This document shows positions 1,370 to 46,923 of a stretch of 53,996 nucleotides of DNA, in pieces. The DNA is from Pseudomonadota bacterium (lineage in GTDB: Bacteria; Pseudomonadota; Alphaproteobacteria; Acetobacterales; Acetobacteraceae). The DNA lies in assembly GCA_021780035.1 (NCBI GenBank), contig JAJXZO010000144.1:1-53996 (forward strand), written 5' to 3'. Each line of letters opens with the position of its first letter. Positions within the stretch are counted from its first letter, which is position 1. The notes under the pieces were generated by a model. That model was not told the origin of the DNA. It saw only the letters and a program-made list of their open reading frames with translations, and ran no database searches. A program made the translations under genes and the position numbers.

Positions 1370-2086
1370 TCAGGCGGCCTCGGTGACGACGACGCGTCGG
1401 TGCCGCCGCGGCGCGCCCGCAGGGGTGACAGCGTAGAGGTCTTTCGTCGCCTCGGTGATGGTGAGGCCGGCGACCGCATGCGGCAGCACGCGCCGCGCGC
1501 CGCGCTCCCACGCCCGCGCGCCGCGCACCATGGGCCGCAGCCGCACCGGCGGCATGAACAGCGCCGCGTCGCGCCGCTTCACCCGGAACAGCGCGGAGGC
1601 GAGCAGGCGGGTGATCTGCCCCGGCGAATAGGGTTGGCCGTGGCCGAACGGCGTGCTTTCGAGGTAGGCCCACATGCCGCGCCGGTTCGGCGTCACCACC
1701 AGAAGCTGGCCGTCGTCTTTCAGCACCCGCCAGATTTCGCGCAGCAGCTTGCGCCCGTGCTCGGCGGATTCGAGCCCATGCACCAGCAGCACGCGGTCGA
1801 AGCAGAGGTCAGGGAAGGGCAGGGCGTCTTCTTCGCCCGCGCAGCTCAGATTCGGCAGGCCGGCGGGCCAGCGCACCACCGAGGTCTGTGCCGGAGTGAG
1901 GGCGATGCAGCGACGGGCCTGCTCGCGCCATGGCCGCAGATAAGGTGCAGCGTAGCCGATGCCGAGCACGTCGAACCCGTCCATCGCCGGCCACAGTGCC
2001 GCCAGCCGCTCGCGCAGCAGCCGCGCCACCATGGCCCCGCGCGGGGTGGCATAGAAAGCGGCCGCCGAGTGGGCTTCGCTCGCCAT
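1370..2086 (-). CDS. class I SAM-dependent methyltransferase (Methyltransf_11 type)
   Basis: A 238-residue protein. A nucleotide-binding strand, Phe-Asp-Val-Leu-Gly-Ile-Gly-Tyr, stands near residue 38 in place of the usual GxGxG. Later blocks include the post-II Asp-Ala-Leu-Pro-Phe-Pro segment and the Phe-Asp-Arg-Val-Leu-Leu-Val-His motif IV region, followed by Leu-Lys-Asp-Asp-Gly-Gln-Leu as in motif VI. Such proteins often sit divergently next to gloB in alphaproteobacteria (recalled, not checked); here 4.4 kb of respiratory genes lie between them. I used the ATG at 2086 because the longer frame adds only a low-quality Pro/Gly leader. The methyl acceptor is unknown. It converges on pyrE with 7 bp between the stops. 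Confidence 0.82.
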   Translation of the reverse strand: MASEAHSAAAFYATPRGAMVARLLRERLAALWPAMDGFDVLGIGYAAPYLRPWREQARRCIALTPAQTSVVRWPAGLPNLSCAGEEDALPFPDLCFDRVLLVHGLESAEHGRKLLREIWRVLKDDGQLLVVTPNRRGMWAYLESTPFGHGQPYSPGQITRLLASALFRVKRRDAALFMPPVRLRPMVRGARAWERGARRVLPHAVAGLTITEATKDLYAVTPAGAPRRHRRVVVTEAA

Positions 2087-2350
2087 GGCGCCGCTATAGC
2101 ACGAACTCTTGCCGCGCGCGCCGCCTGGCTGCGCGGCGGGCGGCGGACAGGCACTCACGCGTAATTGATGACATGGCTGCCAAGATGAAGTGCGCGAGCG
2201 TACGATTCTCGGTCGGGTGTGCGACTATCGCGGGAATTACGCTTCGGCTAACGTGGGCGGGTATCCGCGTTCGGTCCGGTGGTTATTCTGGAAATTCGCG
2301 GCCTGGCAAAGATTGGTTGTTTGCGGAACTTCTCAAATATAAAGAGCCCG

Positions 2351-2959
2351 ATGATGACACTTCGGATTTTTTCCGCGGCGGCGCTGGCCGCCGGGATCAT
2401 GGCCTTATTTGCGGCTTCCGCCGCCCGCGCGGCCGAGACCGTGTATCCGCCGGCGACCGTGCAGCTCTACGCCACCGCGAGCGGCGGTGCCGCGATCGGT
2501 TCGGCGACGCCGGGAACTCCGCTGGCCGTGACCACGGCGGCCTCAAGCGGTCGCGAGCAGGTGACGGTGGAAGGCTGGTCGCGCAAGGGCGGCGAATCGG
2601 TGGTGCTGCAGGCTCCGGGGCTGCGCATCCTGCTGGCGCGGCTGACGCCGGCCGCCGTTGCCGCGCGCAAGGTGCTCGGCCAGCAGACGGACAGCTACGG
2701 TACCGTCTGGGAGCATGTCTCGGTGCCGGTGTGGGTGGAGACGAAGGACGTGGTAAACAGCATCGCCACGGTGTGGGACGCGGCGGGCAAGCTCTACGCC
2801 GCCCGCTGCGCCGCCTGCCACGCGCTGCACGCGCCGAACGAACTGGCCGCCAACGCCTGGCCCGGCGAGATGCGGACGATGGCAAAGAACGCCGGGCTCA
2901 GCCCCGAACAGGACGCGCTGATCACGCGGTACCTGCAGGATCACGCCAAGAAGCAATAA
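2351..2959 (+). CDS. periplasmic SH3-like/monoheme cytochrome c, copy 1
   Basis: A 202-residue exported c-type cytochrome. A signal peptide covers residues 1-27 and ends Ala-Arg-Ala-Ala. A beta-rich, SH3-like region follows (about 30-100), containing Glu-Gly-Trp-Ser-Arg-Lys-Gly. A helical haem domain carries Cys-Ala-Ala-Cys-His at 153-157 and a probable distal Met near 177. The whole mature part resembles, from memory, the C-terminal monohaem domain of TorC/TorY-type cytochromes that feed TMAO reductases, but the NapC-like tetrahaem part is missing. It lies 47 bp upstream of the molybdoenzyme and is paralogous to the gene at 5789. It probably passes electrons to the reductase in the periplasm. 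The ATG at 2351 starts directly at the signal peptide. Confidence 0.86.
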   Translation: MMTLRIFSAAALAAGIMALFAASAARAAETVYPPATVQLYATASGGAAIGSATPGTPLAVTTAASSGREQVTVEGWSRKGGESVVLQAPGLRILLARLTPAAVAARKVLGQQTDSYGTVWEHVSVPVWVETKDVVNSIATVWDAAGKLYAARCAACHALHAPNELAANAWPGEMRTMAKNAGLSPEQDALITRYLQDHAKKQ

Positions 2960-3006
2960 AGCCGGGATTGGGGGAATCACATAAATCGAGGAAGGAGTTC
3001 GATGAG

Positions 3007-5457
3007 ATGAAAGACGATTCCAGCAAACCCGCGGTGCTGCCGCGGCGCGATGTGGTCGCGGCTGCTGCCGCCGCCGGCGTGGGAGGGCTGCTGTTTCCCG
3101 CCGCGGCTATGGCTGCGGACGCCGTTACCCCCGACATGACGGGGCTGCCCGACACCACGACTTCCAGCGCGCCGAACGTGTCGCACTGGGGCGCCTACAC
3201 GGGCGAGGTGATGGGTGGCAAGCTCGTCAGCGTGCAGCCATTCGCCGGGGACAAGTACCCGGTGCCGCTGATCCAGGCGATGCCGGACCTGCTCTACTCG
3301 CCCACGCGCATCCAGGCGCCGATGGTTCGCGAAGGCTTCCTGAAGAAGCGTTCGAAGAGCGACCGCACCGGCCGCGGCCGCGAGCCGTTCGTGCAGGTTT
3401 CCTGGGACGAGGCGACGAAGATCGTCGCCGAGGAACTCGGCCGCGTGAAGAAGCAGTACGGCAACCGCGCGATCTATGCCGGCAGCTACGGCTGGCAGAG
3501 CGCCGGCACCTTCCACACCGCCACCGGCGCCATGCAGCGCCTGATGGCGCTGCTCGGCGGCTATGTCTTCTACGTGAACACCTACAGCGCGCCGGTGCTG
3601 CCGGTGATCACGCCGCATGTTCTGGGCGATGCCCGGCCGCGCGCGTCGGCGTGGCCGACCATTCTGAAGAACGCCAAGCTCATCGTGTTCATGGGCTTCA
3701 ACCCGATGATCAGCGACGAGATCATCTACGGCGGCGACGGCCAGCATTACGACTTCAAGTGGCTGAAGGAGCTGAAGAACTCCGGCATCCCGGTGGTATC
3801 GGTGAACCCCATCGACGAGGACACCGACGAGTACCTCGGCACCGAGCGCATCACGCTGCGGCCGAACACCGACACGGCGTTCATGCTTGGCATCGCCCAC
3901 GTGCTTTACACGGAAAAGCTGCACGACCAGGCGTTCCTCGACAAATACACCGTGGGCTTCGCCAAGTTCGCCGACTACCTCACCGGCAAGGCCGACGGCA
4001 CGCCGAAGACCGCGGAGTGGGCGGCGGCCATCACCGAGGTGAGCGCCGACACCATCCGCACGCTGGCGCGGCGGATGGCGAAGAACCGCACCATGCTGAT
4101 GGGCGGCTTCTCGTTGCAGCGCGCCGAGCACGGCGAGCAGCCGGTGTGGATGATGATCACGCTTTCCGCCATGCTCGGCCACTTCGGCTCGGCCGGCGGC
4201 GGCGCGCAGATCAACTTCCCGCCGGAACTGGGCAACCCCATGGGCAGCGGCCCGCACGTGGCCGGGCTGCCGGCCATCAAGAACCCGGTGAAGGACTTCG
4301 TGCCGGTGAACATGTGGGCGGACCTGCTGCTCAACCCGGGCAAGACCATCGATTACGACGGGCGGAAGATCAAATACCCCGACATCAAGCTCGTCTACTG
4401 GACCGGCGGCAACCCGTTCCATCACGGGCAGGACACCAACCGGGTGCTGAAGGCGTGGCAGAGGCCGGAGGTGACCATCGTCCACGACTACAACTGGACG
4501 GCGACCGCCAAGCACGCCGACATCGTGCTGCCGGCCACTACCGCGATGGAGCGGAACGACATCACCTCGAGCGGCAACTTCATCCTGGCCATGCGCCAGA
4601 TCGTGCCGCCGCAGTTTGAGGCCCGCAGCGACTACGATATCTGCGCGTCCATCGCCGATCGTCTCGGGCTCAAGGACAAGTACACCGAGGGCAAGGACGA
4701 GATGACCTGGCTGAGGGAGCTGTACGCGACCGCGGCGAAGCAGGGGAAGGCGAAGGGGCTCGAGGTTCCCGAGTTCGACGCGTTCTGGGAGAAGGGATCG
4801 GTGGAGTTCCCGACGCCGAAGAGCGCGGACGAGTCGGTGGCGTACTCCGACTTCATCGAGGACCCGGACACCAACGCGCTGGGCACGCCTTCGGGGAAGA
4901 TCGAGATCTTCTCGGACCGCATCGCCTCCTTCCACTACGACGACTGCCCCGGGCACCCGACGTGGCTGCCTCCGTCGGAGTGGCTGGGCAGCCCGAAGGC
5001 GAAGAAGTTCCCGCTGCACGTCATCTCGGCGCATCCGAAGTACCGTTTGCACTCGCAGCTCGACAACACCTTCCTGCGCGACTGGTACGAGGTGAACGAG
5101 CGCGAGCCGGTGTGGATCAACCCGAAGGACGCGAAGGCGCGCGGCATCCAGACCGGCGACGTCGTGCGGGTGTTCAACGATCGCGGCCAGACCCTGGCCG
5201 GCGCGCTGGTCTCTACGCGCGTGCGGGAGGGCGTGATCAAGCTGCACGAGGGCGCCTGGTACGATCCGGTGCAGGCCGGGCGCGCCGGGTCGCTCGACAA
5301 GCACGGCAACGTCAACATGCTGACCACCGACAAGGGAAGCTCGAAGCTCGCGCAGGGCAACCCGTCGCACACCTGCCTCGCGCAGCTGGAGAAGTACAAC
5401 GGCGCCCTGCCGGCGGTGACCGCGTTCACGCCGCCGAGGACTCTGCGCAAGGGCTGA
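3007..5457 (+). CDS. Tat-exported DMSO/TMAO/biotin-sulfoxide reductase, molybdopterin catalytic subunit
   Basis: An 816-residue DMSO-reductase-family enzyme. The N-terminus has a twin-arginine signal (Pro-Arg-Arg-Asp-Val-Val, then an Ala-rich stretch). There is no Cys-rich [4Fe-4S] motif, as expected of the DorA/TorA/BisC branch. Tyr161-Gly-Trp163 and Ser194 match the active-site Tyr114/Trp116 and Mo-ligand Ser147 of Rhodobacter DMSO reductase, with identical 33-residue spacing. The MGD-binding and C-terminal domains are intact, including the Ser-Ala-His-Pro, Arg-Leu-His-Ser-Gln-Leu and His-Glu-Gly-Ala-Trp blocks. It reduces an S- or N-oxide in the periplasm. AGGAAGGAG precedes the ATG at 3007. 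Two paralogous cytochromes flank it; no TorD chaperone or NapC-type quinol dehydrogenase is nearby. Substrate is uncertain. Confidence 0.93.
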   Translation: MKDDSSKPAVLPRRDVVAAAAAAGVGGLLFPAAAMAADAVTPDMTGLPDTTTSSAPNVSHWGAYTGEVMGGKLVSVQPFAGDKYPVPLIQAMPDLLYSPTRIQAPMVREGFLKKRSKSDRTGRGREPFVQVSWDEATKIVAEELGRVKKQYGNRAIYAGSYGWQSAGTFHTATGAMQRLMALLGGYVFYVNTYSAPVLPVITPHVLGDARPRASAWPTILKNAKLIVFMGFNPMISDEIIYGGDGQHYDFKWLKELKNSGIPVVSVNPIDEDTDEYLGTERITLRPNTDTAFMLGIAHVLYTEKLHDQAFLDKYTVGFAKFADYLTGKADGTPKTAEWAAAITEVSADTIRTLARRMAKNRTMLMGGFSLQRAEHGEQPVWMMITLSAMLGHFGSAGGGAQINFPPELGNPMGSGPHVAGLPAIKNPVKDFVPVNMWADLLLNPGKTIDYDGRKIKYPDIKLVYWTGGNPFHHGQDTNRVLKAWQRPEVTIVHDYNWTATAKHADIVLPATTAMERNDITSSGNFILAMRQIVPPQFEARSDYDICASIADRLGLKDKYTEGKDEMTWLRELYATAAKQGKAKGLEVPEFDAFWEKGSVEFPTPKSADESVAYSDFIEDPDTNALGTPSGKIEIFSDRIASFHYDDCPGHPTWLPPSEWLGSPKAKKFPLHVISAHPKYRLHSQLDNTFLRDWYEVNEREPVWINPKDAKARGIQTGDVVRVFNDRGQTLAGALVSTRVREGVIKLHEGAWYDPVQAGRAGSLDKHGNVNMLTTDKGSSKLAQGNPSHTCLAQLEKYNGALPAVTAFTPPRTLRKG

Positions 5458-5788
5458 CGCCTCGGCCCTTCGGCTTCCTGCCGGGCGCAGCCGCATTCGG
5501 CGGGGAGCGGCTTTCCGCAGCAATGCCTTCCGGCGCGCTTCGCCGGACACCGCAGCCTCGCTCACGACAACCGTGGGCGAGGCTGTTGCGTAGCAAGGGG
5601 AGGCACTTTCAAAAGTGTTTGAAAAGACGATCACTGGATAATGTGGTACGCGGGCTTGCGTCTGTTGTTGGGGGAATCAGCTTACTCGCAGACGAAATGC
5701 CCTCGTTCTGCCTGGATTGTTACCAGGTAACGTGGGGATTACCGAAGTGTAATTGTTGCGGAAAGCCTGAAAGGCAGAGAGAGCACCG
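5458..5788. other. 331-bp intergenic region between reductase and second cytochrome
   Basis: No convincing standard gene. The first half holds two adjacent GC-rich hairpins (5530-5546 and 5555-5583). The second half is less GC-rich and holds two small dyads (CACTTT-CA-AAAGTG at 5604-5617 and GTTACC-A-GGTAAC at 5719-5731). It also holds a 31-codon Cys-rich open frame at 5697-5792 that overlaps the next start codon. Confidence 0.6.
5530..5583 (+). terminator. tandem hairpins after the reductase gene
   Basis: Hairpin 1 (5530-5546) has a CCGGCG/CGCCGG stem with a 5-nt loop. Hairpin 2 (5555-5583) has a 12-bp stem, GCCTCGCTCACG pairing with CGTGGGCGAGGC around ACAAC, with one G-U pair. No uridine run follows, so this is a weak intrinsic terminator or an mRNA-stabilising or attenuating structure that would separate the reductase from the second cytochrome. 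Confidence 0.45.
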
Positions 5789-6391
5789 ATGATGCTTAAA
5801 AAAACCGGAACGGCGGCGCTGTTCGCCATGGCCATCACCCTCCTGGGTGGTCCTGTCGCCCACGCGGCGGGGTTCGTCTATGCAAACGCGCTTGCGCCGC
5901 TCTACGCCGGGCCGAGCGGCGGCGGCAGCGTGGGTTCGGTCACGCCGGGAACGCCGCTGGCCGTGGTCGCACCGGGCTCGGGCGTGCGCGAGCAGGTTTT
6001 GGTGGAAGGCTGGTCGCGCAAGGGCAGCGATGCGGTGGTGCTTCAGGCGCCGGGGCTGAACATCGTGCTGGCGAAGCTGACGCCGGCCGCACGCGCCCAT
6101 CGCAAGCTGCTCGGCCAGCGCCGCGACCGCGCCGGTGCAACGTGGGAGCACGTGGAAGTGCCGGTGTGGGTGGCGCGGAGGGACGTGGCGGCCAGCGTGA
6201 ACACCGTGTGGGCCGCGGCGTACAAGCTCTACAGCGCGCGCTGCAAGGCCTGCCACGCGCTGCGCGCACCCGGAACGCGCACCGCCAACGAGTGGCCGCG
6301 CATCCTCAACGTCATGGAGAAGAACGCCGGTTTCAATGTGCAGCAGGCGGCGCTGGTGACGAAGTACATGCAGGAACACGCGAAGAAGTAG
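5789..6391 (+). CDS. periplasmic SH3-like/monoheme cytochrome c, copy 2
   Basis: A 200-residue paralogue of the cytochrome at 2351, collinear over its whole length. It has a signal peptide of about 26 residues ending Ala-His-Ala-Ala, an SH3-like beta region with the shared Glu-Gly-Trp-Ser-Arg-Lys-Gly block, and haem motif Cys-Lys-Ala-Cys-His at 152-156. A candidate distal Met lies at 176 and a Lys-Lys C-terminus is shared. Conservation is strongest in the SH3 core and around the haem; the signal peptide and the 100-115 linker differ. GGCAGAGAGAG lies just before an ATGATG start. It probably also serves the reductase upstream, either as an alternative donor or as one step of a two-cytochrome relay. 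The 331-bp gap suggests it can be expressed separately. Confidence 0.85.
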   Translation: MMLKKTGTAALFAMAITLLGGPVAHAAGFVYANALAPLYAGPSGGGSVGSVTPGTPLAVVAPGSGVREQVLVEGWSRKGSDAVVLQAPGLNIVLAKLTPAARAHRKLLGQRRDRAGATWEHVEVPVWVARRDVAASVNTVWAAAYKLYSARCKACHALRAPGTRTANEWPRILNVMEKNAGFNVQQAALVTKYMQEHAKK

Positions 6392-6467
6392 GCGGGCGCC
6401 CCGGCGGGGCAAACCGGCGCGGCGGGGGCGGCTTCCCGCCCGCCGCCGCAACGGCTACACTTGCGGC

Positions 6468-7190
6468 ATGATCACCGCCCGGCCGGTCTCCATCCTGCGC
6501 GACAACTACGCCTGGCTGCTGGAGGAGGAGGCGGGCGGCGCGCGCGCCGTCGTCGACCCGGCGGAAGCGGACCCGGTGGCGGAGGCGATCGACGCCGCCG
6601 GCGGCCGGCTCGATCTCATCCTGCTTACCCATCATCACGCCGACCATACCGGAGGCACGGACGCGCTGCGCGCCCGCTACGGCGCCCGCGTGGCCGGCGC
6701 GGCGTTCGACCGCGAGCGCCTGCCCGCGCTCGACCTGCCGCTCGCCGACGGCGATACCGTGCCGTTCGGCGGCGCCGAGGGGCGAGTGATCGCCACGCCG
6801 GGCCACACGCTTGGGCACCTCTGCTATCACTTCCCCGCCGGGACGCTGCTGCTCAGCGGAGACACCCTGTTCAGCCTCGGCTGCGGGCGGCTGTTCGAGG
6901 GAACCGCGGAGCAGATGTTCGCCTCGCTCCGCCGCCTCGCCGCGCTGCCGGCGGACACGCAGGTCTGCTGCGGCCATGAATATACCGAGGCCAACGCCCG
7001 CTTCGCCCTCATCGAGGAACCGGACAACGCCGCGCTCCGCGCTTATGCGGCGGAAGTGGCGGCACTCCGCGCGCGGGGGCTGCCCAGCGTGCCGAGCCGG
7101 CTGGCCACCGAGCTTGCCGCCAACCCGTTCCTGCGCGTCGCCGACGCCGCCGCTTTCGCCGCCCGCCGCGCCCGCAAGGACCGGTTCTGA
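6468..7190 (+). CDS. gloB: hydroxyacylglutathione hydrolase (glyoxalase II)
   Basis: A 240-residue metallo-beta-lactamase-fold hydrolase. The metal motif Thr-His-His-His-Ala-Asp-His is at 54-60, with further ligands in Gly-His-Thr-Leu-Gly-His (about 110), Ser-Gly-Asp-Thr-Leu-Phe and Cys-Gly-His-Glu-Tyr-Thr. This is the full glyoxalase II set, with the C-terminal substrate-binding extension ending Arg-Lys-Asp-Arg-Phe. It hydrolyses S-D-lactoylglutathione to D-lactate and glutathione in methylglyoxal detoxification. The next gene begins 3 bp after the stop, so the two are probably co-transcribed. Confidence 0.93.
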   Translation: MITARPVSILRDNYAWLLEEEAGGARAVVDPAEADPVAEAIDAAGGRLDLILLTHHHADHTGGTDALRARYGARVAGAAFDRERLPALDLPLADGDTVPFGGAEGRVIATPGHTLGHLCYHFPAGTLLLSGDTLFSLGCGRLFEGTAEQMFASLRRLAALPADTQVCCGHEYTEANARFALIEEPDNAALRAYAAEVAALRARGLPSVPSRLATELAANPFLRVADAAAFAARRARKDRF

Positions 7191-43408: not shown

Positions 43409-44014
43409 TCAGGCGCCGAGGCCGCGCAGGATCTCACGGAAGGCGACCTGCCCCGGATCGTCGAGCCCGACGGAACGGTCGGCGAAGATGCGGGCGCGGC
43501 CAATGTGCGCCGGCTCGTTCCGCATCCGCGCGAGCGTCGCGTCCACCGCTGCCGCTGCCGCCACCAGCATCGCCGCCGGGTCGTCCTTGCCCGTGGTGGC
43601 CTCGATGGCGGCGTTCAGTGCATCCAGCACCGTTTTGTCGCCGAGCGAGGCCTTGCCGCGAGCGATCATGGCGTCGAGCGCGCCCTGCAGCAGCGCCGGC
43701 ACCTCGGTCCACGGCACCTCGGTACGGCCCTTGGTGGCCTTGGCGGCGCTGAGCAGCGCTGTCGCCAGCAGGGTGCCATAGCTGGAGCCGGAAGCGCGGG
43801 TGAACGCCTGTGCGCAGGCCATCAGCGCCATGCCCACGTCGGCCGGCAGCGTCGGCAGCGCTTTCACCACCTCGCGGCCGCCGCGGACCATGGTGACGCC
43901 GAGGTCGCCGTCGCCGAGCTGGCCGTCGATGGTGTTGAGCGAATCCGCCGCGGTCTCCATGTGCGCGGCGATGCGGGAAAGCCCGGCGGCGAGCACCGGC
44001 ACGGTGAGCGGCAT
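43409..44014 (-). CDS. dhaL: DhaL-type kinase subunit, pair A
   Basis: A 201-residue ATP-binding subunit of a dihydroxyacetone/tetrulose kinase. Metal-binding Asp30, Asp35 and Asp37 lie at the same numbers as in E. coli DhaL (Ile-Asp-Gly-Gln-Leu-Gly-Asp-Gly-Asp-Leu-Gly). The residue after Asp37 is Leu38 rather than the usual His. Gly-Ser-Ser-Tyr-Gly-Thr-Leu and Gly-Asp-Lys-Thr-Val-Leu-Asp complete the nucleotide site. It transfers phosphate from ATP, or in other bacteria from a PTS protein; no DhaM is present, so ATP is likely. It begins 4 bp after its dhaK partner. Confidence 0.9.
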   Translation of the reverse strand: MPLTVPVLAAGLSRIAAHMETAADSLNTIDGQLGDGDLGVTMVRGGREVVKALPTLPADVGMALMACAQAFTRASGSSYGTLLATALLSAAKATKGRTEVPWTEVPALLQGALDAMIARGKASLGDKTVLDALNAAIEATTGKDDPAAMLVAAAAAVDATLARMRNEPAHIGRARIFADRSVGLDDPGQVAFREILRGLGA

Positions 44015-44018
44015 GGTC

Positions 44019-45017
44019 TCACACCCTCCAGAAGGCGCACTCGGCCGGGGCGAGGAGGTATTTCTCCAGTTCCGGCGTGAGCGTGATGATGGTGAAGGAA
44101 ACGCCGGCCATCTCCATCGAGCAGGCGTAGCGGCCGACCAGCGGCATGACGATGCTGGCTCCCGCGCCGGTGAGCCGCGCCGCAACGTCGCGGTAGAGGA
44201 TGAACAGTTCCTCGGGCGGCGTGGCGCCGAGGCTGTTCACCAGCACGGAGACGCGCTGGCCGGAAGCGATCGGCCGGTCGGCGAGCAGCATGTCGAGCAT
44301 CTCACCGGCGATGGCCTGCGCCGGGCGCAGGGCGCCGCGGCGCACGCCGGGTTCGCCGTGGATGCCCATGCCGATCTCCATCTCATCCTCGCCGATGGTG
44401 AAGGTGGGGCGGCCCGCCTGCGGCACCGTGCAGGGGGTGAGCGCCACGCCGACGGTGCGGCAGGCATCCGCCGCGGCCTGGGCGACGCGCGTCACTCCCG
44501 CGAGGTCGAGGCCCGCCTCGGCGGCGGCGCCGGCAATTTTGAAGGCGTAAATCATGCCGGCAACGCCGCGCCGCTTGGCGGCCTCGGCGGGCGGGGCGGA
44601 GGCCACGTCGTCGGCGAGGCGGACGGTGGTGGAGGGAACGTCCTCCATGTCCATCATCTCGCCGGCCATGTCGAAGTTCATCACGTCGCCGCCGTAATTG
44701 CCGTAGAGGCGCAGGATGCCGGCGCCACCGTCGGCCGCGCGCATGGCGTCCACCATCTGTTCCACCGAGGGGGAGGCGAACACCTCGCCGATGGCGCAGG
44801 CGTCGAGCAGGCCGCGACCGACATAGCCGGTGAACACCGGCAGGTGTCCCGAGCCGCCGCCCGTCACCACACCCACCTTGCCCTTGCGCGCGAGGCCGGG
44901 GCGCTTGATCACCCGTCCGCCGCCGCCCGTGCGCTCGTAATACTGGGGAAAGGCGAGGCAGAGCCCCTCCAGCGTCTCGTCGACGTAGGCGAAGGGGTCG
45001 TTCAGGATCTTTTTCAT
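44019..45017 (-). CDS. dhaK: DhaK-type kinase subunit, pair A
   Basis: A 332-residue substrate-binding subunit. The keto-sugar attaches to a His, here His220 in Gly-Met-Gly-Ile-His-Gly-Glu-Pro-Gly. Asp111 (Asn-Tyr-Gly-Gly-Asp) and His58 (Gly-Gly-Gly-Ser-Gly-His) complete the pocket. The pocket loop is His-Leu-Pro instead of the common His-Glu-Pro seen in pair B. With DhaL it phosphorylates dihydroxyacetone or a related ketose such as erythrulose. It is divergently transcribed from pair B across a 260-bp regulatory gap. Confidence 0.9.
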   Translation of the reverse strand: MKKILNDPFAYVDETLEGLCLAFPQYYERTGGGGRVIKRPGLARKGKVGVVTGGGSGHLPVFTGYVGRGLLDACAIGEVFASPSVEQMVDAMRAADGGAGILRLYGNYGGDVMNFDMAGEMMDMEDVPSTTVRLADDVASAPPAEAAKRRGVAGMIYAFKIAGAAAEAGLDLAGVTRVAQAAADACRTVGVALTPCTVPQAGRPTFTIGEDEMEIGMGIHGEPGVRRGALRPAQAIAGEMLDMLLADRPIASGQRVSVLVNSLGATPPEELFILYRDVAARLTGAGASIVMPLVGRYACSMEMAGVSFTIITLTPELEKYLLAPAECAFWRV

Positions 45018-45277
45018 CGCGCGTTCCTCTGCGGTGCCGCCCCGGTGGCCGGCATTGGCGGCAGCATAGCCCGCCCGGCAGCCGTTGGGCAGATGGCAAG
45101 CGGAACGAAACCGCCACCGCGGGGGTGCGCCGATGAGCATCTGTTCTCCCGCGTTGACAAAAGATAGAGCCGCCCGTTATGGTCGCGCGGTCTGCCGCAG
45201 GGCAGCATGCCGGCCTCCGGCGGCGACGGCGGCCGACCGGAAAAGCCTCCTGAAGCGTCCAACCTGGCGGACAGATA
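45018..45277. other. 260-bp divergent promoter region between the two dhaKL pairs
   Basis: It holds the start signals of both kinase operons. A good plus-strand promoter is at 45154-45183. No equally clear minus-strand promoter and no long inverted repeat were seen, and no regulator gene lies in this part of the window. Confidence 0.5.
45154..45183 (+). promoter_or_regulatory. sigma70-like promoter for dhaK pair B
   Basis: TTGACA (45154-45159), a perfect -35 hexamer, then 18 nt and TATGGT (45178-45183). The leader to the dhaK start would be about 85 nt. It is the only consensus -35 in the divergent region. Confidence 0.55.
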
Positions 45278-46282
45278 ATGAACCGGATCATCAATAATCC
45301 CGACCTCGTGGTGGAAGATGCGGTGCGCGGCTACCTGAAGGCGCACGCCGACCTGGTCGCGCCGACCGGCAATCCGCGCGTCATCCGCCACCATCTGGCG
45401 CCGCGCCAAGGCAAGGTGGGCGTGGTGACGGGCGGCGGTTCCGGCCACGAGCCGGCGTTCCTCGGCTACGTCGGCGACGGCATTCTCGATTCGGTGGCCA
45501 TCGGCGAGATCTTCTCCTCGCCCACGGCCAAGAGCTTCCACGACGCCTTCGTCGCCGCCGACGGCGGCCGCGGCGTCGCCTGCCTCTACGGCAACTACGC
45601 CGGCGACAACATGAACGTGAAGCTCGCGGTGAAGCAGGCGTCGGCGCATGGCCTCGTGGTGAAGACGGTGGTCGCCAACGACGACGTTCCCTCCGCTCCG
45701 GTGGCCGAGCGCGCCAAGCGCCGCGGCGTGGCCGGCGAGGTGCTGATGTGGAAGGTGGGCGGCGCGCGGGCAGCCGAGGGCGCCGACCTGGAGCAGGTGA
45801 TCGCCTCGGCGCAGAAGGCCATCGATTCAACGCGCAGCATCGGCATCGGGCTTTCCGCCTGCACCATTCCCGCCGTCGGCAAGCCGAACTTCTCCATCGA
45901 CAACGGCATGATGGAGGTGGGCATCGGCCACCATGGCGAGCCGGGAGTGAAGGTGAGCGCGATCTGCCCGGCGAGCGAGATGGCCGACCTGATGCTGGAG
46001 CACGTGCTGCCCGATCTGCCGTTCGCCGCCGGCGACGACCTTGCGGTGCTGGTCTCGGGGCTCGGTGCCACGCCGATCATGGAGCTTTACATCCTCTACG
46101 ACCGCATCAGCGAAGTTCTGGGAGGCAAGGGGATGAAGGTGCGCCACCCGTTCATCGGCAACTATTTCACCTCGCTCGAAATGATGGGCGTCACGCTCAC
46201 CATCATGCGGCTCGATGCCGAACTCGACCGACTGGTGGCGGCACCCGCGCGGTCGCTCGGGCTGACGAAGGTCGTGTCGTGA
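45278..46282 (+). CDS. dhaK: DhaK-type kinase subunit, pair B
   Basis: A 334-residue DhaK paralogue. It has Gly-Gly-Gly-Ser-Gly-His-Glu-Pro (His57), Asn-Tyr-Ala-Gly-Asp-Asn-Met-Asn (Asp110) and covalent His219 in Gly-His-His-Gly-Glu-Pro-Gly. The pocket loop is the canonical His-Glu-Pro. Overall it is only moderately similar to pair A, so the two pairs are not a recent duplication and probably prefer different ketoses. It is followed by its own dhaL, with start and stop overlapping. Confidence 0.92.
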   Translation: MNRIINNPDLVVEDAVRGYLKAHADLVAPTGNPRVIRHHLAPRQGKVGVVTGGGSGHEPAFLGYVGDGILDSVAIGEIFSSPTAKSFHDAFVAADGGRGVACLYGNYAGDNMNVKLAVKQASAHGLVVKTVVANDDVPSAPVAERAKRRGVAGEVLMWKVGGARAAEGADLEQVIASAQKAIDSTRSIGIGLSACTIPAVGKPNFSIDNGMMEVGIGHHGEPGVKVSAICPASEMADLMLEHVLPDLPFAAGDDLAVLVSGLGATPIMELYILYDRISEVLGGKGMKVRHPFIGNYFTSLEMMGVTLTIMRLDAELDRLVAAPARSLGLTKVVS

Positions 46283-46923
46283 GAGGCGTCGTCCTGGCCG
46301 ACGCGGGCGGCGTCGTGGTCGAAATGGTCGACGCGATCAACGCCAACCGCGCGAAGCTTTCGGAGATCGACGGCGCCATCGGCGACGGCGACCACGGCAT
46401 CAACATGAGCAAGGGCTTCACCCAGGCCGGTGCGGCGCTGGGCGACCCTCTGCCGCCGCTGCCGAAGGCGCTGCAGGTGCTGGCCGACGCGCTGTTCGAA
46501 GGCATCGGCGGCTCCATGGGGCCGCTCTACGGCTCGCTGTTCGGCGCCATGGCGGAGACGCTCGGCAGCGCCCCCGTGCTGGACGCGCCGCTCTGCGGGC
46601 GCATGCTGCGAGCGGGACTGGAGGGAGTCGAGGAGATCGGCTCGGCGAAGCCCGGCGACAAGACGCTGCTCGATTCTCTTGCTCCCGCCTGCGACGCCTT
46701 CGACGCTGCGATGGCCGCCGGCAGGCCGTTCGCGGAATGCCTGCGGGAGATGGCGGCGGCGGCGGAGAAGGGGCGCGATTCCACCCGCGACATGATCGCC
46801 CGCGTCGGCCGGGCTTCCCGGCTCGGCGAGCGCTCGCGCGGCGTGGTCGACGCCGGCGCGTCCTCCTGCTGCCTGATTCTGCAGACCATCGCCGCCGGGC
46901 TGGAAAAACGGCTTCAGGCCTGA
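46279..46923 (+). CDS. dhaL: DhaL-type kinase subunit, pair B
   Basis: A 214-residue subunit with the canonical metal loop Glu-Ile-Asp-Gly-Ala-Ile-Gly-Asp-Gly-Asp-His-Gly (Asp31, Asp36, Asp38, His39). Gly-Gly-Ser-Met-Gly-Pro-Leu-Tyr-Gly and Gly-Asp-Lys-Thr-Leu-Leu-Asp-Ser also match. It starts with GTG inside the dhaK stop (GTGA overlap), forcing coupled translation. The C-terminal helix ends Gly-Leu-Glu-Lys-Arg-Leu. The SDR follows after 125 bp on the same strand. Confidence 0.92.
   Translation: MRGVVLADAGGVVVEMVDAINANRAKLSEIDGAIGDGDHGINMSKGFTQAGAALGDPLPPLPKALQVLADALFEGIGGSMGPLYGSLFGAMAETLGSAPVLDAPLCGRMLRAGLEGVEEIGSAKPGDKTLLDSLAPACDAFDAAMAAGRPFAECLREMAAAAEKGRDSTRDMIARVGRASRLGERSRGVVDAGASSCCLILQTIAAGLEKRLQA

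Follow-up and report, generated by a model that had tools for sequence, protein, structure and literature searches.

A putative TorAB-type S-/N-oxide reductase module with a doubled stand-alone cytochrome in an alphaproteobacterial draft genome

A reductase gene of the TorA/DorA/BisC family is flanked by two genes for small monohaem cytochromes (cytA and cytB) in the window, which is the whole stretch of 53,996 nucleotides that was analysed. The window corresponds to contig C212 of a draft genome that totals 2,667,043 bases in 253 contigs, with 90.03% completeness and 2.52% contamination. The three genes are read as a TorAB-type reductase that would be fed by soluble cytA and cytB, with the TorC encoded on contig C232 as the likely quinol entry, and this reading is considered fairly probable. 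The two cytochromes would take over the role of the C-terminal domain of TorC and would deliver electrons to the Mo centre of the reductase; this exported enzyme would then reduce an S- or N-oxide. Quinol electrons would reach the cytochromes via the TorC on C232, which is the sole NapC-family protein found. An earlier sequence-only reading of this DNA had placed the reductase between two small cytochromes at the positions given below. This layout holds, with all three frames intact and on the same (+) strand.

2351..2959 (+): cytA, from the ATG at 2351 to the stop that ends at 2959; 202 aa; one CxxCH at residue 153
2807-2821 (+): cytA haem motif CAACH, from the translation
2879-2881 (+): cytA Met177, conserved, likely distal ligand (Met in 28 of 32 aligned C-terminal domains)
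3007..5457 (+): reductase of the TorA/DorA/BisC family, from the ATG at 3007 to the stop that ends at 5457; 816 aa
3487-3489, 3493-3495 and 3586-3588 (+): reductase Tyr161, Trp163 and Ser194, from alignment columns
5458..5788: gap of 331 bases between the reductase and cytB
5789..6391 (+): cytB, from the ATG at 5789 to the stop that ends at 6391; 200 aa; one CxxCH at residue 152
6242-6256 (+): cytB haem motif CKACH
6314-6316 (+): cytB Met that matches that of cytA

The neighbours identified by profile scans are a methyltransferase upstream on the opposite strand and a glyoxalase II downstream. The region 2000-6700 has no sigma-70-type promoter match (0.4 expected) and six terminator-like sites against 3.2 expected, one of which lies on the + strand within the gap between the reductase and cytB (5648-5661). 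With that gap before it, cytB may share the transcript of the reductase or be expressed separately. An FNR-like site pattern, with at most two mismatches, has nine sites across the window against 4.4 expected, and four of 100 shuffles reach nine. None of these sites is upstream of cytA or cytB, and two sit inside the reductase gene. Elsewhere in the window (43409-46923) there are two divergent gene pairs, which we presume to resemble dihydroxyacetone kinase DhaK/DhaL.

The reductase is, as judged by its profile and structure matches, a molybdopterin S-/N-oxide reductase of the TorA/DorA/BisC family. It matched the bisC_fam profile TIGR00509 with an E-value of 6.8e-303 and 1006.7 bits, which is slightly below the curated cut-off of 1017.55. 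Its best PDB match is the DMSO reductase 1dms (E=7.6e-238), and DMSO reductases align with it over almost the full length. The DMSO-reductase spacing that had been proposed for Tyr161, Trp163 and Ser194 is confirmed by the 1dms alignment, where Tyr161-x-Trp163 and Ser194 coincide with the Tyr, Trp and Ser positions. We take these to be active-site residues and the Ser to be the Mo ligand. Trp and Ser are each present in 33 of the 33 reductases aligned, and the Tyr is variable. The Tyr is kept by the window reductase and is absent from the reductases of C239 (another contig of the same genome) and of three related genomes (G285, G310, and G414), so the substrates of those four may differ from that of the window reductase, which is probably an S- or N-oxide. 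A twin-arginine leader (PRRDVV) was read from the translation by inspection, which suggests that the reductase is exported.

Both cytochromes match only the C-terminal part of TorC, as the sequence-only reading had held. cytA matched the TorC profile TIGR02162 with an E-value of 8.6e-33 over profile positions 198-380 of 387, and cytB matched it with 4e-28 over positions 210-380 of 387. They score far below the cut-off of 478 bits because each corresponds to half of a whole-protein model. The haem part alone matched Pfam DHC, with 24.3 bits for cytA (cut-off 22.2) and 17.8 bits, below cut-off, for cytB. The membrane-bound tetrahaem NapC-type half is absent from both, each having a single CxxCH, and signal peptides were seen by inspection of the translations. 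Counted from the first Cys in the haem motif, the conserved Met of the C-terminal domains is 24 residues further on, and it is likely the distal haem ligand. By these matches, cytA and cytB are stand-alone homologues of the TorC C-terminal monohaem domain. They are 58% identical to each other and are sisters in the tree with support of 99/95, so that the proposed duplication is borne out and cytB would be the product of a local duplication in the lineage of the window organism.

The N-terminal half of the cytochromes had been described as an SH3 domain. No SH3 family match was found for them in Pfam. The structure model of cytA is rich in beta structure across 37-130 and helical across 131-199, and it is a weak model built from 3 sequences with a mean pLDDT of 50. 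An SH3 fold of this half is putative. An excerpt of PMC11727998 refers to the stretch of E. coli TorC ahead of the last haem domain as a hinge or linker domain. Nothing significant was found when cytB alone was compared with PDB sequences (best E=0.21). A six-row cytochrome profile matched the dihaem cytochrome c 3u99 in the haem part only (E=0.00031), with three others at E 0.3-0.7, and the sole match of E. coli TorC to solved structures was NrfH.

The sequence-only reading had also stated that the reductase is without NapC-type or TorD partners. This stands for the locus, as none is found on the 54 kb contig. It does not stand for the genome, which has a TorC on C232 and a TorD-like gene on C32. 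The C232 TorC is the one match to the NapC family (PF03264) in the genome. It is truncated by the contig end and keeps part of the NapC half and the C-terminal haem domain. A torC/napC gene elsewhere that is dedicated to the window reductase had been named as a finding that would count against the proposal. This is half borne out: a torC gene does exist elsewhere in the genome, but it is found beside another reductase, 26 bases upstream of it. This position speaks against TorC as the donor of the window module, and its link to cytA and cytB is putative. Genes of the TorD family (PF02613) are found only on C32, C97, and C226 in the genome, and none in this search is linked to the window reductase. 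The C32 gene is upstream of a reductase and matched PF02613 above cut-off and NF003442 below cut-off (E=3.1e-25).

Strong matches to TIGR00509 are found on seven contigs (C163, C32, C212, C61, C132, C232, and, as a partial match, C239), two of them above cut-off, and the weaker rows are other molybdoenzymes. The C61 reductase has no cytochrome beside it. C239 has a third stand-alone cytochrome of the TorC C-terminal type, upstream of a reductase that runs off the contig. Many molybdoenzyme loci were listed in this 2.67 Mb draft (C163, C32, C61, C132, C232, C239, C97, C201, C208, and C226). Inspection of the translations pointed to NarGHJI-like genes on C97, further molybdoenzyme operons, and, on C208, a bd-type oxidase.

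The cytochromes of the window, C239, G285, G310, and G414 and the C232-type TorC form one group in the cytochrome tree (96/97), apart from classical TorC and from fusions of the TorC C-terminal domain to a dihaem part. The reductase tree exhibits a corresponding group in the 11-row set (95/95) that also takes in the C61 and C132 reductases. The placement of the window reductase within it is moderately supported (inner forks 83/70 to 89/87), and it pairs with that of C61. For the six stand-alone cytochromes in the cytochrome group, one common origin is not rejected (p-AU 0.216), and the corresponding topology test of five reductases gave a p-AU of 0.278, both sets having been picked after the trees were viewed. 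A single clade of all nine stand-alone cytochromes is rejected (p-AU 0.004). The trees and the topology tests together indicate that free and fused forms interconverted more than once, in a direction that the trees do not fix.

The cytA protein has matches in six of 60 genomes, which are its own, four congeners, and one from a different family. A four-row profile has matches in 10 of 395 genomes of the order-wide sample. Matches were found in eight of 385 genomes of the class-wide sample and 51 of 398 of the phylum-wide sample, the own genome being included in each count. The pairing of a stand-alone cytochrome with a reductase recurs in relatives. G285, G310, and G414, which are among the ten genomes of the order-wide matches and represent two other genera of the same family, have a stand-alone cytochrome upstream of a bisC-family reductase and no NapC/NirT-family match. 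The G414 reductase was assigned by tree placement. The family is probably Acetobacteraceae, to which G310 and G414 would belong. The two genes are 48 bases apart in G310 and G414 and about 700 in G285, where a 124-aa frame lies between them that is class I cytochrome-like with a broken haem motif (CAARH). Two more distant cytochrome/reductase pairs, without the Met, are found in G002 and G003. G002 also has two tandem C232-type reductases behind a TorC end (L063:591-5403, +).

The module loci of the relatives have further genes of their own. A small membrane protein is encoded in G285 (L087:3922-4392, -), G310 (L088:3777-4289, +), and G414 (L089:2-418, +), and neither Pfam nor NCBIfam has a match to those of L087 and L088. 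The module locus of G285 and G310 also has a class I cytochrome c. Beside the G285 module there is an arsenite-oxidase-like large subunit (L087:9556-11898, -; TIGR02693, 261 bits, below cut-off) with a Rieske_3 domain.

Among the matches listed from outside the family, those that extend into the N-terminal half are in frames of at least 367 aa, except in G1105. That size would fit TorC-like or fused proteins, and some of these frames were read. G1105, a one-contig genome of another family, has a 206-aa stand-alone cytochrome upstream of a reductase, and a third gene where TorD would otherwise be (L140:6589-10301, +). The other matches outside the family in the phylum-wide and class-wide samples cover the haem part only. 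The two such loci that were read (L141 and L142) are tandem dihaem cytochromes with no reductase in the stretch and were rejected as instances of the module. Among the matches listed in the 60-genome, order-wide, class-wide, and phylum-wide samples, no other genome has two whole-domain matches around one reductase. The related-locus search of genome contigs returned one locus, from a Rhodobacteraceae bin with a five-haem TorC.

The possible electron inputs of the module were compared among genomes. PF03264 is present in seven of 12 chosen genomes and has no match in G001, G148, G285, G310, and G414, the last three of which are 98%, 94%, and 88% complete. Among seven genomes, cytochrome c1 is found in G002, G003, G285, G310, and G414 (a short piece at a contig end) and is not found in G1105 or the window genome. 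Cytochrome b is found in G285, G310, and G414. In G285 the bc1 looks intact, and its cytochrome b has retained PEWY and the two histidine pairs. The cytochromes b of G310 and G414 (L153 and L154), aligned by eye to that of G285, are without PEWY, and the second histidine of the two pairs is replaced by Gln and Thr. In L153 the cytochrome b is beside a cytochrome c1 that retains CxxCH. These altered proteins fit the present but non-functional bc1 that is described for acetous and acidophilic Acetobacteraceae in an excerpt of PMC10715153. The module is therefore found in three contexts, which are TorC without a found bc1, bc1 without a found NapC, and neither of the two apparently functional. 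It seems that the cytochrome is not tied to any fixed quinol dehydrogenase, and the module would be fed by bc1 in G285 and by something else in G310 and G414.

Entry via the bc1 branch had been suggested for the window organism. In this alternative, in which a class I cytochrome c may take part, the bc1 (Qcr) genes would simply be absent from the draft bin. The apparently intact complex of G285, which has the module and no NapC match, the single class I cytochrome c (PF00034) of the window genome on C101, and the bc1 route proposed for C. jejuni TorAB in the excerpted text of PMC6195509 all favour it. Against it, the searches that detected cytochrome b and c1 in relatives found neither in the window genome, and this genome holds TorC and the bd-type oxidase. 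With a completeness of about 90%, the bin may lack a bc1 locus or a second NapC, which weighs against the TorC-fed explanation; bc1 genes are usually clustered, and a single gap could therefore hide them. We consider bc1 entry rather unlikely, and TorC on C232 the likelier, if unproven, point at which quinol electrons would enter in the window organism.

The two copies may also form a relay or divide the labour, with cytA as the direct reductant and cytB taking electrons from the donor or serving another reductase. The position of the copies on both sides of the reductase and the gap before cytB, which permits separate expression, are consistent with this, as is the finding that only C212, C232, and C239 of the seven contigs with bisC-family reductases have a TorC-type C-terminal domain. 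However, both copies share the haem motif type, the Met, and the flanking residues, and the sequences do not separate their roles, so that such a division appears improbable. Reverse flow, in which the pair would oxidise a thioether or other donor and pass electrons via the monohaem cytochrome to the respiratory chain, might be read from the lack of a dedicated quinol dehydrogenase at the locus and from the arsenite-oxidase-like neighbour and class I cytochromes in G285, but the family and active-site columns are the same as in reductases and the genome has no found bc1 and one PF00034 cytochrome as a possible acceptor, which makes it very improbable.

The TorC-fed reading places the window module beside known systems. 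In C. jejuni, according to the excerpted text of PMC6195509, TMAO reduction requires QcrABC, TorC is absent, and TorA is associated with TorB, a soluble monohaem cytochrome of small size that has homology to the C-terminal domain of TorC. In C. concisus, the excerpted text of PMC10653797 describes the pairs BisA/BisB and TorA/TorC-Y and a monohaem cytochrome of 189 aa, predicted to be periplasmic, that goes with a periplasmic N-/S-oxide reductase; each genome has several reductases of this type, and Qcr is suggested as the donor. The window module is similar to these in having a stand-alone cytochrome of the TorC C-terminal type adjacent to the reductase, with export assigned by inspection and TorB/BisB compared by their published description. 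In contrast to C. jejuni TorA/TorB (Cj0264/Cj0265), the window genome has a TorC elsewhere, no bc1 was found in it, and the cytochrome is doubled. The doubling also sets it apart from C. concisus BisA/BisB as described in that excerpt. The window module would thus be of the Campylobacter TorAB/BisAB kind, and a variant rather than a plain member for the three reasons just given.

E. coli TorCAD and TorYZ share with the window the reductase family and the C-terminal monohaem domain of TorC/TorY. In E. coli, unlike in the window, a tetrahaem NapC-type half is joined to this domain; torD comes after torCA, and no torD is beside torYZ. The dihaem/TorC-C fusions (G004 L052 and plasmids of Neorhizobium, Cereibacter azotoformans, Azospirillum, and Rhodovulum) resemble the window in combining the TorC C-terminal domain and a reductase with an input other than NapC, but each is one three-haem protein and they form a separate group in both trees. 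A TorD-family gene is annotated or matched in L052, L069, and L070. Four of 26 matched plasmid records were read. Three-haem cytochromes near a TorA-family reductase were observed in G004 (L052:6353-7927, -) and in L067, L068, L069, L070, and L144. Two class I type haem domains replace the NapC half of TorC in them, as scanned for L052 and as assigned by haem spacing and the tree for the others. In G148 (L090:5684-7291, +) a dihaem/TorC-C gene is apparently interrupted, with two frames for one and a stop inside the match.

The combination of an S-/N-oxide reductase with a stand-alone TorC-C cytochrome is already known from Campylobacter (excerpts of PMC6195509 and PMC10653797). What would be new is the doubled cytochrome, the spread of the module in one family, and the varying electron input. 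No report of the module outside Campylobacter was found in the open-licence literature, as judged by the titles and abstract openings listed.

According to the excerpted text of PMC6195509, TorC pumps no protons and Qcr/bc1 does. Energy conservation in S-/N-oxide respiration depends on which complex oxidises quinol. A tentative and somewhat doubtful extension is that the TorC C-terminal domain may act as a free periplasmic shuttle for S-/N-oxide reductases whatever the donor. The donor would be TorC for the window organism and bc1 for G285, and in G310 and G414 NapC and a working bc1 would both be lacking. If true, this would imply a third, undescribed electron entry into this reductase family. 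G310 and G414 hint at such an entry, which neither the TorC nor the bc1 model explains. A cytochrome detached from TorC and bc1, in a family where NapC and bc1 come and go, would be a natural experiment on energy conservation.
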